From an uncultured Odoribacter sp. (GTDB taxonomy: Bacteria > Bacteroidota > Bacteroidia > Bacteroidales > Marinifilaceae), in assembly GCA_905204385.1 (NCBI GenBank), contig CAJKZL010000051.1, forward strand, positions 1 to 11,938: DNA of 11,938 nucleotides, written 5' to 3'. The position numbers and the translations under genes are program-made. Below are positions 867-7,596 of this stretch, in pieces; position 1 is the first letter of the stretch; every line of letters starts with the position of its first letter. Under the pieces are notes generated by a model. The model had not been told where the DNA came from. It saw nothing but the letters and a program-made list of their open reading frames with translations, and searched no databases.

Positions 867-3800
867 TTAAAAATTAACCGTGATACCGAAAGCAAACCTG
901 CGGGCGCGGGGCGACAAGCTGTTATCCTGGGCCAAATCCTTGAAACTATTGGGAATACCCACTTCGGGATCCTGTCCCTTATACTTGGTGATAGTGAAAG
1001 GATCGTAGCAAGTCAGATAAAGATAAAGCCCCCTGAGCCGCATCCGTTGCAACGTCTTTTACTGAAAGCGGTAAGAAAGCGTAATGTCCTTCACTTTCAT
1101 AAACGAAGATTTATTCACATACAGGTCCGACCCCAGCGTATTGTAATTGGTACCCCACAACGCCCGGGGAATCTCGGTATCGTCCCCCTCATACCGCCAG
1201 CGGCGCAAAACGGAAGTGCTCTGATTGTTTCCTCCTTCCATCATCTCGGCGTTCAACAGCGCACGGTTGATCACCGACTGCCCCACACGATAGGCCACCG
1301 ACGCCCGCAAGGAAATCCCCCTGTACATTAAGGTCATTCCCCCACCACCGAGAAACAAAGGCTGGGAACTGCCCAAGTATACCACGTCATACTTATCGAT
1401 CACTCCGTCCTTGTTCACGTCGTAATACATCGCATCCCCGGGCCGCTGCCGGAAAGTACCGTTGATCCGGGTCACTACGTTCTTCCCGTAAGCATCCTTG
1501 ATCACATTTCCATCCCGATCGCGGGCATAGGTCTCATCCACATTCTGATAAACGCCCAGGTAACGGAAGCCGAAGAAAGACCCCAAAGGCCGGCCTTCCA
1601 TCACCTTGTTGGTATACGCCCCATTCTTTACCTCCGGAGTCTGATATTCCAGGTTCATCGGCAAATCGAGCACCTTATTCCGGTTGCGCGAAATATTGAA
1701 ATCCAGATTCACCCGGAAATCGCCGATTTTCACCACACTATTTCCCCTCAGGTACAATTCCCATCCTTTGTTCTGAATGCTACCGTCATTAAACCAAGGA
1801 ATTGTGGAATATCCGGTAGTACTCTGTATCTTCATATTTTGCTGCAGCAAGTCGTGCGTAGTCTTGATATAATACTCGAAAGCCATATGGAAACGATCCT
1901 GGAATATCCCGAAATCCAACCCGTAATTCTGCTGCTGCACCGTTTGCCATTTCAGTTTGTTCAATTGCATGGAACTGGGTTTGATGGCCGTCATATCCAC
2001 GTAATTCATTCCCAGGGCTTCATAAGTCCCGGCATACGTCGAACTGCCCGAAGGCGAGCTTCCGCTGATTCCCCAACCTATACGCGGCCGCAAATCGCTC
2101 AGCCATTCGCAACCTCTCAGGAAAGGCTCTTCATTCAGATACCAGGAAGCATTGAGACTGGGAAAAGTTCCCCAACGCGAATCCCGCCCGGTTTTGGAGC
2201 TTCCTTCCGTACGGAAAGCAAAATTCAGGTTTATCCTATTGTTATAGGTATAGAGAAAACTTCCAACAAAGGCCACATTCCGGGTCTGCGATTTGCCTGC
2301 ATACACCGAACTCAGGTTTCCGTTATTGGCCGGATCGCTCAGTGAAGGCACCGGATTACCGTGAGATTTCGACCCATAGTTGGACGATTCATTATCCTGA
2401 GCGGTGAAACGGGCCGAAGCATTGATCTTATGCCTCTTCCAGAACTCGGTAAAATACTGAAGGAAGGCAGTCATGTACAGACTGTTCGTTTGAGAATTAT
2501 TGTCCGTCGAAAGATTGTAATTATCGCTGTTCATCGAGGCCCCCGTGGCGGAAACAGGCAAAAAACTCTTGGACTTGGTCGTACTCAGCGTAAACGACAC
2601 TGTCGCCTGAAATCGTAAGTTATACAACATGCGGTAGTCCAGGTTGAAATTCACTCCGGCATTCCGGTTGATGGCATTATTCACTGCATCGTTGGCCAAA
2701 GCGATCGGATTAGGCAAGCTTCCCTGTATACTCGTCGAAGGCTGATTAAAATATTCGTTGGTAAAATTCCCCTCCCCGTCCAAAACAAAAGGAGTGAGGT
2801 TGGGCATTTTCCGCCGGGCAATCTCGCGGGGCGTCCCTCCGCTATTGTACATGGAATTGCGGTCGCCTTCCGCATAGGAAAACTGGGAAAAAACCTGCAG
2901 CTTATTGGAAAACCGATAGTCCAGATTCAAGCGCGAGGTGACCCGCTTGAAATCTTCTCCCACCGTAGTCCCCGTCTCTGTCAGATAACCGATCGAAAAG
3001 CGATAGGACGCCTTATCACCTCCACCGGACATACTGAAATTCGTTTCACTATTTATAGGAGTCTGTACGATATAATCCAGCCAATCCACATCCTGATTAA
3101 ACTCCCGGAAATACTTGTAATTCGGATTATATCGGATGTCCTGATACTGATTGAGCAATCCCAGATCGGTATACTCATTGTCGCGGATCCTGTTCCAAAT
3201 GGCATCGTTCATCAGGGTAACATACTCCTTTGCATTCAGCAAAGGCAATTTATTAGGTTACAGACAGGAAGATATCTTCTCGGTCACCTCGAAGGTAGGC
3301 TTACTTTTTTTACCCCGTTTTGTCGTAATCTTCAACACCCCGTTGGCAGCCTGGGCGCCCCAAATGGCCGTGGCCGAAGCATCTTTCAAAACTTCGATAT
3401 CTTGGATGTCCGAAGGAGAAATATTGATCAAAGCCCCGAAATCTTCTTCCGTAGCCGTGCCGAAGTCAAAATCGGAACTGATGTCGATATCGGGTTGAGG
3501 AATCTCATCGATGACGATCAAAGGCTCGTTGCTAGTATTCAGCGAAGCGGTACCCCGGATACGGATATTCATCTTCGCCCCGTGCGCTCCGCAAGTAGCC
3601 ACCAATTCCATATTTGCGACTTTTCCCTGCAACATATCTCCCACAGAGGTTACCACCATATCCTGCAAATCGTCCAAATCGATTTTTTGGCGGGCACCTC
3701 CCAGCGCCTTGGTATCCATGCCCATCGCATCTTTATTGATCGCTTTCGCCGTTATCACCACCTCATCCAGGGCCGTCAACTCTTCCTGCAATTTGATATT

Positions 3801-4091
3801 CAAGACGGCTTGCTGGGTATACTTCACTTCCTTGGTTTTGTATCCCACAAACGAAAACACCACTTTCACGATCCCCTGATTCGCCGGAATACGGATAAAG
3901 TATTCTCCATTGGCGTCCGTGATCACTCCGAATACGGCACGATTGTCCTTATTGTATAAAGCAACGGTCGCCCCTAGCAAAGGCCCATCGGCATCGGTGA
4001 CGACACCCCGCATAATATTCTCCTGCGCCACCGCCTGGAAAGAAACCAGAAGCAGCATCAGAACCATGATTCTAAAACACATCACTTTCAT
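867..4091 (-). pseudogene. SusC/RagA-like TonB-dependent outer-membrane transporter, interrupted by two in-frame TAA codons
   Basis: The full frame is 1,075 codons, a normal SusC length. The N-terminus has a signal peptide (about residues 1-22, ending AVAQ). A carboxypeptidase-regulatory-like domain follows (about 27-110; GVVTDADGPLLGATV), then the TonB plug, recognised by IRIRGTASLNTSNEPLIVID and by VLKDASATAIWGAQAANG near residues 175-255. The rest is beta-barrel, ending in the typical TKYKGQDPEVGIP and the aromatic C-terminus AFGITVNF. A TAA at 3258-3260 (after TEKISSCL) and another at 1059-1061 (after ITLSYRFQ) lie in the same frame, and homology-like sequence continues on both sides without a frameshift. 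Other genes here end normally at TAA, so TAA is not generally recoded. Likely origins are CAA or AAA changed to TAA. A TTG at 3246-3248 could restart but would lack signal and plug. As written the transporter is non-functional; readthrough or sequence error remain possible. It follows the FAS1 gene by 15 nt. Confidence 0.9.
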
Positions 4092-4106: not shown

Positions 4107-6356
4107 TTATTTCTCTGCCGTGACCACCTTAGTGATTCCGAAAATAATACCGTCCGTACCGAAATAGGGAACGTCCCCGTCCGTGAGTACGCTATTTCCG
4201 GCCTCATTACTGATGCGCAAGCGCTTATCATCCACAAAGTCTATTCTCATTTTCGCTTTCACCACCGGGGAATAGGCATAACGGGTATCGAAAAGCCCCG
4301 GATCGCCTAGATTGGGCAAAACATACTCATTCATCTTATTCTCCTTCACCGGAATAAAAAAGAATTTCAGGAAATTGGCCCTTTCGGCCGAGTCTACGGG
4401 AACAATCGTTTCATCCCAGGCCTCATTGGCCGGTGCGAACACTATGGTACGCTCTCCCTTCAGCCAATCCAGCTCGACATCCTTCACGTCCGCTGCCGTG
4501 GAAGCCCCTTCCGGTAACAATTTCAATAAACCGACATTCAGCAATGCCTCGTAAAATTTTTGATATTTTGCGGAATTTTTAAACAAATGCATGCCGATGC
4601 CTTCCGTCTCCGAGCCGAATTTGTCCGGCATTTCGTAAACAACTCCCCGGCCGGAACCGTTTTCATACTCGAACGTCCAGGTATTCAGCGGATCCATGGA
4701 AACCTGATTCTCGCTGTAAATGCTCCCGTCCTCCGTATAGATGTAGTGATACTGATTTTTGGTCGCATAGTATTTACGGCCGGTATACTGATAACCGTAG
4801 TTTACAATCCCGTCCACCACCTGATTCGTGATAAACGTTTTCTGTTCACTACCGTTCATATCCGTCATATTCTGATTTGTTTCGCTGATAAAACGCTTAA
4901 TCACCACCCTGCCGTTGATCAGATCGTTGCTGGTAGGGTTGCCGTTCAGATCGGCGTAATACCCGTACTTACTTTTCAACGCCTCATTATCCACCGCAAA
5001 AATGGTAAACTCCCGGTCTGGATCCACCATAGAAAGAAAAGTCTCCTGTTTATGGGCGATATTCAGCATAGTACTGAACCGGTCATACTTGAAAAACGGC
5101 TGCATCAACATAGTAAACATAGCTGGCTCCAGCACTTTGTCGATACCGTATAAAACCCCGTTGCTGCAGAATTTGGCCCTCTCGATGTCTTTGCGCTTCA
5201 ATTTCCATTTCTCGCCGTAATACCCCTCGATCCCCTTATCGATTTTAGAAGGCAAAATCAGGGTTTGACGATTGGCACAATGAGCCTTTAGCAAATAATA
5301 CATGCTCAGCAGAGGCACATCCTGATAGTTGTATTTTCCCTCCCAGTACTTGTAGATGTAATCCGTCAACACTTCGTCCGAAGGAACAAAACAATTAAAC
5401 GTATACTTCAAACGGGCTTCATAGTCCGCTTCATTTTCCTGTACCGTCCATTCACAGGCAATATCCGGCAAATCGTCCCCGGCATTCGGGGCCAGATAAT
5501 GATAAAACATAAATACACTGTCACCCAACTCGGCATAATTCTTCGTCTTATCGGCATCGTACTGGAAATTCACAAGCCTGTTGTACAAATCCTTGAACAC
5601 CCGGTAATTGTCATTCTCTTCCAAAGCCTGATATACCGTGGGCAATAAATCCACCACTTCGTCCACCAGATACATATAACCGTTGTCCAAAGGTATACCA
5701 CTCTCCAGCACCGCAGCATTGGCCACGTACAAGCGGTCTTTATCGCCCTGCCAGCGGATACCGGGAAAGAACATTTTATAATCGCCTTCATAATCGACGC
5801 TTCCCTGGGCATCGAACAAACGGGTAGAGAGTACCGGCAAAAATTTTTTCTGATGGTACACCTTTTTTTCTTGTTCCGTTGCAGGATTTTTAGTCATCGT
5901 AATGCCTTGCTGCGCCAAAGTCTCGAACTTATAGCAAGAACCGTCCCCTTCCACGGGCTCCTCGGCCGATGCTGTCTTGGAAAAAGCGAGAAAGTCCTGC
6001 CGGTTGAACGAAAACTCAATCAAATGATAGCTCACAAGCAATTTCAAAGAGTCTTGGTCCAGCTCCTCCAGCGATCCTTTTCCCTTTTTCGCCAAATAGC
6101 GCTTGAAAGCTTCGTCGTCCGGAGCAAAGACCGAATACAATCCCCTTCCGTCCAATGCATCCTTGTAATTGGTCATTTCCAGCGCCTGCAAGAAATAAGT
6201 GTAGTTTCCTTTCTCTTTCAGATACTCATAGGCATTACCCCGAAGGTAATCCGGTCGATCATAGTAATTATCCATTTCATTCCGGCACCCCCAGAGCGCC
6301 ATGAATAACAACGGATACGTTAAAAACCTAAGAGACATTTTTCTCATAATTAACAT
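4107..6356 (-). CDS. Lipoprotein with four tandem FAS1 (fasciclin) modules, first gene of a SusC/SusD operon
   Basis: The product is 749 residues from ATG 6356. An equally plausible start is the ATG at 6347 (residue 4), which gives a more usual MRKMSLRF signal start; neither has a clear Shine-Dalgarno sequence. Cys24 in ALWGC is a relaxed lipobox, so the protein is probably a surface lipoprotein. I see four FAS1-like modules. Each opens with a helix-rich F/Y...L region, has a T-I-F-A-P-type core (LYSVFAPDDEAF near 73-84, FNCFVPSDEVL near 320-330, FTIFAVDNEAL near 450-460, TIVFAPANEAW near 637-647), and closes with a G-hydrophobic-Y/F-x-I/V pattern (YMYLVDEVV, VLYGIDKVL, GVVYEMPDKF, IIFGITKVV). 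FAS1 domains generally mediate adhesion or protein-protein contact. In Bacteroidetes, FAS1 genes often travel with susC/susD, which suggests an accessory surface component of that transporter. No catalytic motif or substrate clue is visible. Confidence 0.85.
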   Translation of the reverse strand: MLIMRKMSLRFLTYPLLFMALWGCRNEMDNYYDRPDYLRGNAYEYLKEKGNYTYFLQALEMTNYKDALDGRGLYSVFAPDDEAFKRYLAKKGKGSLEELDQDSLKLLVSYHLIEFSFNRQDFLAFSKTASAEEPVEGDGSCYKFETLAQQGITMTKNPATEQEKKVYHQKKFLPVLSTRLFDAQGSVDYEGDYKMFFPGIRWQGDKDRLYVANAAVLESGIPLDNGYMYLVDEVVDLLPTVYQALEENDNYRVFKDLYNRLVNFQYDADKTKNYAELGDSVFMFYHYLAPNAGDDLPDIACEWTVQENEADYEARLKYTFNCFVPSDEVLTDYIYKYWEGKYNYQDVPLLSMYYLLKAHCANRQTLILPSKIDKGIEGYYGEKWKLKRKDIERAKFCSNGVLYGIDKVLEPAMFTMLMQPFFKYDRFSTMLNIAHKQETFLSMVDPDREFTIFAVDNEALKSKYGYYADLNGNPTSNDLINGRVVIKRFISETNQNMTDMNGSEQKTFITNQVVDGIVNYGYQYTGRKYYATKNQYHYIYTEDGSIYSENQVSMDPLNTWTFEYENGSGRGVVYEMPDKFGSETEGIGMHLFKNSAKYQKFYEALLNVGLLKLLPEGASTAADVKDVELDWLKGERTIVFAPANEAWDETIVPVDSAERANFLKFFFIPVKENKMNEYVLPNLGDPGLFDTRYAYSPVVKAKMRIDFVDDKRLRISNEAGNSVLTDGDVPYFGTDGIIFGITKVVTAEK

Positions 6357-6390
6357 TTTATATTAAAATCAAAATGATGAATCCATATAC

Positions 6391-6398
6391 CAAAAATA
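6391..6398 (-). promoter_or_regulatory. Possible -7 box for the FAS1-susC-susD operon
   Basis: The minus strand reads TATTTTTG here, an exact match to the Bacteroidetes -7 element TAnnTTTG, 35 nt ahead of the FAS1 start at 6356. No TTG lies at the expected -33 distance, and TATTTTTG-like words are common in AT-rich DNA; a second copy on the same strand lies at 6583-6590. The position directly beside the 16-bp repeat at 6400-6415 is suggestive but not proof. Confidence 0.3.
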
Positions 6399-6399
6399 T

Positions 6400-6811
6400 C
6401 GTTCGTTTAAAATGGATATTTTATGCCCTTCCATTTCCATTTTGCTATTCTTAAGCGAATGCTAATATTGTTAATATTTGTATTGTAAGGATTAGTAATT
6501 TTCCTGATCCAATACCTGACAACCGTCCTTTAATTTTGACTCACCTTCTAAAAAATGTTTCAAAATCCTAAAATCAGAGGAGCAAAAATAATTAAGTTTT
6601 ACGAATATTAAAGAGATTAATTAAAAAAATTAATAAATCCTTGTTATTATTTTTTCAATTTTCCTTGAACCCAGGTCTTTTCAATTTATTCTTAAAATTG
6701 TGCAATCAATTGCAAAACTTAAAAATTGTTTTGTTTTATTTCTTTTAAGGTTTATCCACAAATTCTTTTTAATAAAATTTCGGGCTGAATGTTACCCATT
6801 TTAAACGAACG
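6400..6811. repeat. AT-rich segment bounded by a perfect 16-bp inverted repeat (MITE-like)
   Basis: The sequence CGTTCGTTTAAAATGG at 6400-6415 recurs as its exact reverse complement CCATTTTAAACGAACG at 6796-6811, 380 nt further on. Inside the perfect arms a weaker match continues: left ...TTTTATGCCC, and right, read inward on the other strand, ...CATTCAGCCC. The true arms may therefore be about 30 bp and imperfect. The 412-bp segment has no open frame, as expected for a non-autonomous miniature transposable element, but I see no clear target-site duplication (flanks ATAT and TTTT). Alternatively the two copies are matching regulator or sigma-factor sites facing the two divergent units. Confidence 0.55.
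6752..6760 (+). other. Single perfect DnaA-box sequence
   Basis: TTATCCACA matches the DnaA consensus TTATnCACA exactly and lies beside a strongly AT-rich stretch. No second box is visible nearby and neither dnaA nor other origin-linked genes are in the window. It may be chance, a DnaA titration or regulatory site, or part of an origin; the sequence alone does not decide. Confidence 0.3.
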
Positions 6812-6868
6812 TTTTCCTCAGGGATATTCCAAATATCGTCTCCGGTTTGCTATTATTTTCCCTTATTT

Positions 6869-7114
6869 TGACGTACTGTTGCTTGCAGTACGTTGTTTTT
6901 TGATAAGAATAACGTGCTGCATTTTGCAGTACGTCATTTTTTCCCAAATATGAGATGCTGCAAGGTGCTGCACATCATTTTCACCGATATATGACGTACC
7001 GCAATATACCGCACGTCATCTTATGACATAAATGACGTACTGTAACGTGCAACACGTTATTTTCTATAATAGATAACGTACTGCAATGCGCTACACGTTA
7101 TCCTTTCGTGTAGT
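6869..7114. repeat. Tandem array of six 41-bp palindromic units
   Basis: Six units start at 6869, 6910, 6951, 6992, 7033 and 7074, exactly 41 bp apart. Each has a left arm like TGACGTACTG, a 7-nt loop (typically CAATnTG), a right arm like CAGTACGTCA, and a 14-nt spacer that starts T-rich and ends A-rich. Unit 1 pairs perfectly over 8 bp (ACGTACTG with CAGTACGT). In the last three units the inner pairs have decayed but the outer 6-7 pairs remain, partly through paired changes (TGACGT with the later ACGTCA in unit 4, TAACGT with ACGTTA in unit 6). Right arms can also pair with the next unit's left arm across the spacer, giving for example a 15-pair stem with wobbles over units 1 and 2. A degenerate extra right arm (TAGTACGTCT, 7111-7120) overlaps and follows unit 6. 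The array ends about 60 bp before the rplU promoter. The units are too short and degenerate for CRISPR. Function unknown. Confidence 0.9.
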
Positions 7115-7176
7115 ACGTCTTAACTTTCCCGAAATCCACTGCATTTCAAGGCAAGCAATAAAAACCCGAAATTCTT

Positions 7177-7206
7177 TTGGCATCTCCAAAATAAACACTA
7201 CTTTTG
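7177..7206 (+). promoter_or_regulatory. Bacteroidetes-type promoter for rplU-rpmA
   Basis: TTG at 7177-7179 and TACTTTTG at 7199-7206 are separated by 19 nt, an exact match to the Bacteroidetes housekeeping pattern TTG-N19-TAnnTTTG. Transcription should start near 7212-7214, giving a leader of about 70 nt before rplU. Confidence 0.85.
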
Positions 7207-7224
7207 CACCACAAATTTTCCTTA

Positions 7225-7256
7225 GGGGTACAATAAGTGGTCGAAAAGCCCACCCC
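7225..7256 (+). promoter_or_regulatory. Structured 5' leader of rplU, candidate ribosomal-protein control element
   Basis: Within the predicted leader, GGGGT (7225-7229) pairs with ACCCC (7252-7256). Inside that stem, GGT (7239-7241) pairs with GCC (7248-7250) over the loop CGAAAA, leaving an asymmetric internal loop of about nine bases on the 5' side. After the hairpin the RNA is A-rich and unstructured up to the start codon. Compact bulged hairpins like this are typical of ribosomal-protein autoregulation sites, and L21 leaders are known in Firmicutes. Assignment here is inference. Confidence 0.45.
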
Positions 7257-7284
7257 GTGGTATTAACAACAAAAAAGAAAACAA

Positions 7285-7596
7285 ATGTACGCTATTGTTG
7301 AAATTGCAGGACAGCAGTTTAAAGTAGAAAAAGACCGTAAGGTGTATGTTCACCGTCTGGCAGCCGAAGAAGGATCACAGGTTGAATTCGACAACGTTCT
7401 TCTGGTGGACAACGACGGTCAGGTGAAAATCGGCACACCGAAAGTAGAAGGGGCCAAAGTTACCGTAAAAGTATTGAAACATCTGAAAGGGGACAAAGTA
7501 ATCATTTTCAAAAAGAAAAGAAGAAAAACTTTTGAAAGAAAGAACGGTCACCGTCAATATCTGACTCAGATTCAGATCGAATCTATCAACGCTTAA
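7285..7596 (+). CDS. rplU: 50S ribosomal protein L21
   Basis: The product has 103 residues, the usual length for L21, a protein of the large ribosomal subunit that contacts 23S rRNA and L20. It begins with the family's MYAIVEIAGQQFKVEKD, has the central LLVDNDGQVKIGTP segment, and ends with the L21 signature in which Lys and Arg precede GHRQYLTQIQI. The start at 7285 lies after an A-rich tract (AACAAAAAAGAAAACAA), as common in Bacteroidetes, with no Shine-Dalgarno sequence. It is the first gene of rplU-rpmA, driven by the promoter at 7177-7206, and is followed by rpmA after 45 nt. Confidence 0.98.
   Translation: MYAIVEIAGQQFKVEKDRKVYVHRLAAEEGSQVEFDNVLLVDNDGQVKIGTPKVEGAKVTVKVLKHLKGDKVIIFKKKRRKTFERKNGHRQYLTQIQIESINA

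Follow-up and report, generated by a model that had tools for sequence, protein, structure and literature searches.

The window—that is, the whole stretch of 11,938 nucleotides analysed here, from a contig of an uncultured Odoribacter sp.—is Odoribacter-like, its RuvC being 82-85% identical to those of several Odoribacter loci and also 84% identical to that of a locus labelled Bacteroides sp. S18_Bin4. It contains a tandem array of palindromes located between divergent genes in intergenic DNA. The leftward operon beside the array covers a fasciclin-domain protein as well as TonB-receptor plug and SusD-like fragments, the rightward one consists of rplU-rpmA-serS-DUF4286-ruvC, and both point away from the array, as the first-pass annotation of this DNA had described. 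The features are as follows:

6582-6590, minus strand: TATTTTTGC box, a possible promoter of the fasciclin/SusC operon, from pattern match alone
6869-7114, unstranded: six-unit 41-bp dyad-symmetric array, from period and symmetry tests
6869-6895, unstranded: palindrome of unit 1, with 12-nt arms and a 3-nt centre; terminator-like on the plus strand
6910-6936, unstranded: palindrome of unit 2; terminator-like on the plus strand
6951-6977, unstranded: palindrome of unit 3
6992-7018, unstranded: palindrome of unit 4
7033-7059, unstranded: palindrome of unit 5
7074-7100, unstranded: palindrome of unit 6
7111-7120, unstranded: extra half-site GTAGTACGTC, out of register, after unit 6, read from the sequence
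7176-7207, plus strand: putative rplU promoter (TTTG at 7176-7179, TACTTTTGC at 7199-7207)

Concerning the promoters, the assignment of TTTG and TACTTTTGC at rplU follows the Bacteroidetes-type promoter consensus; counts of the pattern are near chance (7 found vs 4.2 expected), and the second box is conserved among 17 aligned leaders. The array ends approximately 60 bp upstream of this putative promoter and, since the rplU leader and the likely promoter box are conserved in 17 loci, it is positioned just upstream of conserved promoter DNA. If the TATTTTTGC box represents the fasciclin/SusC promoter, both putative promoters would have the array upstream of them. The rplU leader also exhibits a hairpin (GGGGU...GUGG...CCAC CCC; window 7218-7275) conserved in the 17 aligned loci, with 11 predicted pairs, two of them showing a compensatory change, and with no gathering-level match in Rfam; it may perhaps be an L21 autoregulatory leader.

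At the left end of the window, on the minus strand of positions 1-854, part of an NAD-dependent epimerase (ORF 1-252) is joined directly to a truncated SusD-like protein (216-854), suggesting that the contig end is chimeric or that the DNA was rearranged. The SusC-like receptor (867-4091, minus strand) is divided into three frames (277, 729 and 61 aa); the two breaks, near 3250 and 1055, reflect frameshifts, a pseudogene or sequencing error; Pfam matches are present in the first piece only, the other two being presumably its continuation. A 19-nt inverted pair (6400-6418/6793-6811; 95% complementary, 374 nt apart) is located beside the array, not around it.

The array itself consists of six units at an exact period of 41 bp without indels, beginning at 6869, 6910, 6951, 6992, 7033 and 7074. 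At lag 41 it matches itself with an identity of 0.66; in 2000 mononucleotide shuffles, the best lag between 10 and 100 reaches 0.34 on average and 0.415 at most. The units are pairwise identical in 20-28 of 41 positions; TRF, run with a minimum score of 30, does not list the 41-bp array. Every unit has complementary arms, best described as 12 nt around a 3-nt centre, a better fit that shares its axis with the 10 nt around 7 nt proposed in the first-pass annotation, the six starts and the closeness of the period to four helical turns being likewise confirmed. Eight palindrome centres of the array are among the window-wide top 30, all of them on a 20.5-bp grid, as is bound to follow when a periodic sequence has a single dyad. 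The unit consensus is 68% self-complementary compared with 48% in shuffles (P 0.005; second test P 0.003). A CRISPR array was considered and rejected, the repeats being diverged and the spacers not unique (mean column identity across the spacers 0.52).

The palindromes had been called covarying, and this did not hold up: arms of the same unit form 8.67 Watson-Crick pairs out of 12 vs 8.70 for arms of different units (permutation P 0.62), or 9.67 vs 9.57 when G-U pairs are allowed (P 0.49). What is kept in the arms is their sequence, the pairwise identity of arm columns being 0.72 vs 0.48 for loop and spacer (P 0.0037; best of 41 rotations). A3, T6 and G10 are present in all 12 half-sites. In columns 2/26, 7/21 and 11/17 both sides vary between the same two bases, columns 2/26 and 7/21 matching internally in just three and two of the six units, respectively; columns 4, 9 and 12 are variable in both arms, with no alternative base in common. 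Arms conserved as sequence are more in keeping with a dyad in the DNA than with a stem in RNA. The array of the window combines a tandem period, a dyad and mirror-symmetric conserved half-sites, the last being what an array of dimeric operators would have. An excess of transitions in its arms (19:5 vs 16:19 outside, P 0.015) was discarded as a signal, the trend being opposite in the wider class of arrays described below (113:130 in arms vs 352:306 outside, P 0.07).

At the same locus, no array was found upstream of rplU, by eye and by the class-array detector, in any of 14 relatives with 700 bp of sequence (13 Odoribacteraceae loci and one of the Marinilabiliaceae, out of 16 with upstream sequence; L001 and L018, whose upstream sequence is too short, were left out). 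In L012, TRF gives one 1.9-copy 20-bp repeat there, by eye a single hairpin. Owing to this absence, a role as a conserved regulator of rplU is unlikely. Concerning the sequence itself, an 18-bp match was all that blastn with the array returned from 18 genomes, plasmid and phage collections yielded no relative, and the exact palindrome pattern has no match in viral contigs. Under stricter filters, a covariance model of the units scored three times at E of at most 0.1 among 56 family genomes: in an unrelated 41-bp array of O. lunatus (L082) and in two lone hairpins that follow a gene in G044 and G045. Among 99 phylum genomes, the reference genome G058 being one of them, it scored once (L177). 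A single perfect hairpin with a T run, GGCTGCAATTTGCAGCC, occurs behind a gene in L083 and L084, i.e. in two genomes, and is likely a terminator.

Palindromic arrays with periods of 41, 21-23 and 82 bp are nevertheless present in other genomes, as seen in 80 fetched loci. A detector covering periods 10-149 with no preference for 41, applied with extra genomes sampled, found 70 arrays in 2.8 Mb of mostly Bacteroidales DNA (a set that runs up to L171 and counts about 20 kb of L007 twice): 20 at 20-24 bp, 38 at 40-42 bp, two at 82 bp and ten elsewhere. The 60 arrays in the first three ranges are referred to here as the class; shuffling inside 100-bp blocks left the detector with zero arrays. The class reaches 25 arrays in 200 kb of G058, 10 in 100 kb of G057 and 9 in 100 kb of G059, where all detected arrays belong to it, as well as three of four arrays in 57 kb of G060; these four genomes, picked since their first loci held arrays, supply 55 of the 60 (RuvC loci included). 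The detector found none in 60 kb of G003 and in 100 kb each of G014 and G010. When sampling was less biased, non-coding class arrays were present at 6 of 80 RuvC loci (L027, L060, L064, L070, L074, L080) and in 3 of 20 genomes taken from the order (L186, L188, L194), with none detected in 20 genomes drawn from the phylum or in 250 kb of E. coli. Similar arrays of the same period are thus distributed patchily in related bacteria.

As an independent tool, TRF agrees in the array-rich genomes: among its arrays with periods of at least 19 bp, the share within the class ranges is 53 of 57 for G057-G059. It is 23 of 29 for Odoribacteraceae, 49 of 68 for the other Bacteroidales, 7 of 14 for the phylum-wide sample and, both at 20-21 bp, 2 of 4 for E. 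coli. Since TRF counts many two-copy repeats at 20-24 bp, the 40-42 range is more telling; there, TRF lists none in the phylum sample and none in E. coli. In Odoribacteraceae its 41-bp arrays number two, that of L017 (2 copies) and that of O. lunatus L082 (3.4 copies), the latter missed by the detector and having a lag-41 identity of 0.59 vs at most 0.44 in shuffles. O. lunatus also contains dispersed 22-bp palindromic repeats (AAAAAGAG..CTCTTTTT) at L095:2107, L096:246 and L103:167, found by TRF.

The members of the class have symmetry in common rather than sequence. The unit consensus is dyad-symmetric at P of at most 0.05 against shuffles in 29 of the 60 class arrays (25 of 40 with long and 4 of 20 with short periods) and in none of the ten other arrays. 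The 65 array entries, one locus being entered twice, fall into 48 clusters (blastn, E 1e-4), and CTGCAA alone is over-represented (11 of 63 consensus units vs 0.85 expected, families not collapsed). One family of G058 is found at five places, two of its copies with common flanks, and in 0 of 98 other genomes of the order. By ORF calls alone, with arrays masked, the class arrays lie between ORFs except for the coding one of L022, the flanking ORFs being co-directional in 30 cases, divergent in 17, convergent in 11 and undetermined in two; without masking, 20 of the 60 overlap an ORF of at least 150 aa, at least some of these being antisense to a longer masked ORF, although a coding role is conceivable.

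In 33 of the 34 arrays testable by having enough units and arms, conservation is higher in arm columns than in the others (Wilcoxon 3e-7; mean rotation percentile 0.80), arms and axes having been picked from the same data as tested. The raw count alone overstates the effect, since neutral runs—in which variation was reassigned among columns and the whole analysis repeated—are positive in 58%; 32 of the 34 arrays exceed the mean of this simulation, with a combined z of 9.1. Mirror columns in arms are jointly variable 36 times vs 22.3 expected (z 5.25; 43 arrays), and the complementary alternative base is common to 29 of the 36 mirror pairs vs 445 of 793 controls taken from unpaired columns (P 0.0024). 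Because of related arrays and common genomes, the class tests are not fully independent, and less so than their P values would imply. Concerning compensation within units, 12 compensatory doubles stand against 11.1 in permutations, next to 261 one-sided changes; this permutation is preferred to an earlier within/between pairing test (z -3.15), as indels upset the register in some arrays. In 15 pairs of related arrays, 138 base pairs are unchanged, 43 changed on one side, 8 compensated and 3 changed without pairing, the compensated ones being weak evidence either way, because six of the eight are the same two L176 changes seen against three partners. Conserved, mirror-alike half-sites without compensation point to recognition or copying at the level of DNA. 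The first-pass annotation had held that absence from relatives and lack of covariation, together with the lack of a transcript or bound protein, would leave a neutral minisatellite. The first two were found, the absence in 14 relatives, and they count against a structured RNA; yet a merely neutral minisatellite is not what is left, as arm conservation goes beyond the neutral simulation both in this array and in 32 of the 34 testable ones.

Among known repeat systems, the REP/BIME elements of enterobacteria are tandem clusters of intergenic palindromes with a defined consensus and are not known to have a constant 41-bp direct period; the likeness to the array is in the tandem intergenic palindromes, the sequence here differing by array. 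The REP-like satellite considered originally is borne out in part, the class of repeats being dispersed and genome-specific; REP membership is conjectural. The sopC locus of the F plasmid consists of centromere-like 43-bp repeats with inverted repeats and is similar to the array in its tandem repeats of about four turns, each with a dyad, the difference being that no plasmid or partition gene is among the window proteins scanned. The closest lengths are those in Porphyromonas gingivalis W83, for which PMC4596501 describes 41-, 23- and 22-nt tandem direct repeats—the same set as the class periods here—with the 41-nt repeat residing in the 464/PgRS MITE and the 23-nt repeat in the BrickBuilt MITE. 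As far as this description goes, 464/PgRS shares with the array the 41-nt period, the tandem arrangement and the order Bacteroidales, but its repeat is inside a MITE with IS5-like ends, none of which was found near the array. BrickBuilt, in the same account (PMC4596501), is likewise intergenic, dispersed, species-specific and dyad-forming with predicted long stem-loops, but has a 23-nt period, a leader, a tail, terminal inverted repeats and many copies, whereas one array is visible in the window. PINSR (188 bp; PMC4755523) is a different repeat. Outside P. gingivalis, the literature search retrieved no account of Bacteroidales arrays with restricted periods; neither the cross-genome pattern nor the arm conservation turned up in it, the P. 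gingivalis repeat lengths being known.

The reading tentatively preferred here is that the array acts at the DNA level as a phased array of half-sites for a symmetric protein. Given periods of 20-24 and 40-42 bp, neighbouring dyad axes would be about one or two helical turns apart, both arms could serve as interchangeable half-sites for a putative dimeric protein, and several copies of it might line up along the same side of the DNA between the two divergent promoters, forming an architectural or insulating platform. Arm conservation together with the fixed periods favours this view, and the multi-site platform suggested in the first-pass annotation is still a fair candidate, its protein being putative. 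On the opposite side, there is no binding sequence common to the 48 clusters, so that one sequence-specific protein cannot read all the arrays; periods of 23 bp fit two full turns poorly; the array is absent in relatives; and two of its plus-strand hairpins are terminator-like. The symmetric-protein reading is slightly ahead of a hairpin-driven minisatellite devoid of host function, itself a serious candidate, in which a palindromic seed would have been amplified by replication slippage or template switching. Any arm could then pair with any other, and arms re-copied, also in inverted orientation, would stay alike while spacers drift. This agrees with pairing between units equal to that within them, with the alternative bases common to mirror columns, with arrays in every gene orientation and even in coding DNA, and with the absence from the rplU locus of relatives; the sequence diversity between arrays and their genome-specific families, such as that of G058, favour it as well. 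Slippage by itself explains neither the two preferred period ranges nor why the detector found no class array in 250 kb of E. coli, where TRF lists four repeats with a period of at least 19 bp.

Less probable is a relic of a non-autonomous mobile element of the MITE or REP type with internal tandem repeats, similar to BrickBuilt or PgRS. The 23-nt and 41-nt tandem repeats held by P. gingivalis MITEs, as far as described in PMC4596501, would suit it, as would the dispersed G058 family with its commonly flanked copies. No IS5-like terminal repeat is, however, near the array, none occurring between 5925 and 8567 (six matches in the whole window with two mismatches allowed vs 4.5 expected). The array is flanked by a weak inverted pair (6771-6784/7165-7178; 86%), but no target duplication was seen and the right-hand arm of the pair runs as far as the rplU promoter. 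The lack of blastn relatives beyond the 18-bp match also argues against mobility, and Y1 transposases, found in 5 of 12 genomes including the array-rich G058 and G060, are absent from the array-rich G057 and G059.

Tandem bidirectional terminators, or an insulator against read-through, are a still poorer explanation: five terminator-like sites at 6300-7300, four of them inside the array, compare with 0.4 in shuffles, but the neighbouring operons both point away, the array would be upstream of the promoters of both, long T runs are present in units 1 and 2 only, and merely 11 of the 60 class arrays are convergent. A structured non-coding or leader RNA, suggested originally, is very improbable, since the fold of the whole array into one long hairpin (z -10.6 on the plus and -9.1 on the minus strand) arises from its dyad symmetry, covariation is missing in both array and class, the array is upstream of the likely rplU promoter, and Rfam gave no gathering-level match, its 12 matches at E up to 1 (11 microRNA-shaped models and one Bacillus sRNA) being all far under the cut-offs.

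Taken across genomes, period, symmetry and arm conservation common to arrays without like sequence imply a common process or binding mode. A bolder and rather unlikely view is that tens to hundreds of intergenic arrays in some Bacteroidales share a structural code of dyad and helical phase instead of a sequence code, their units being kept close to 2 or 4 helical turns in length and their palindrome half-sites alike; the sequence would be invented anew in each array, and a putative conserved machinery would recognise or generate the arrays. Tandem repeats are usually dismissed as noise, and what sets the length of about 41 bp is a directly testable question. In Parabacteroides sp. An277, where 200 kb contain 25 arrays, the whole 3.7-Mb genome would by extrapolation contain some 460, which would be a large unannotated share of its intergenic DNA.
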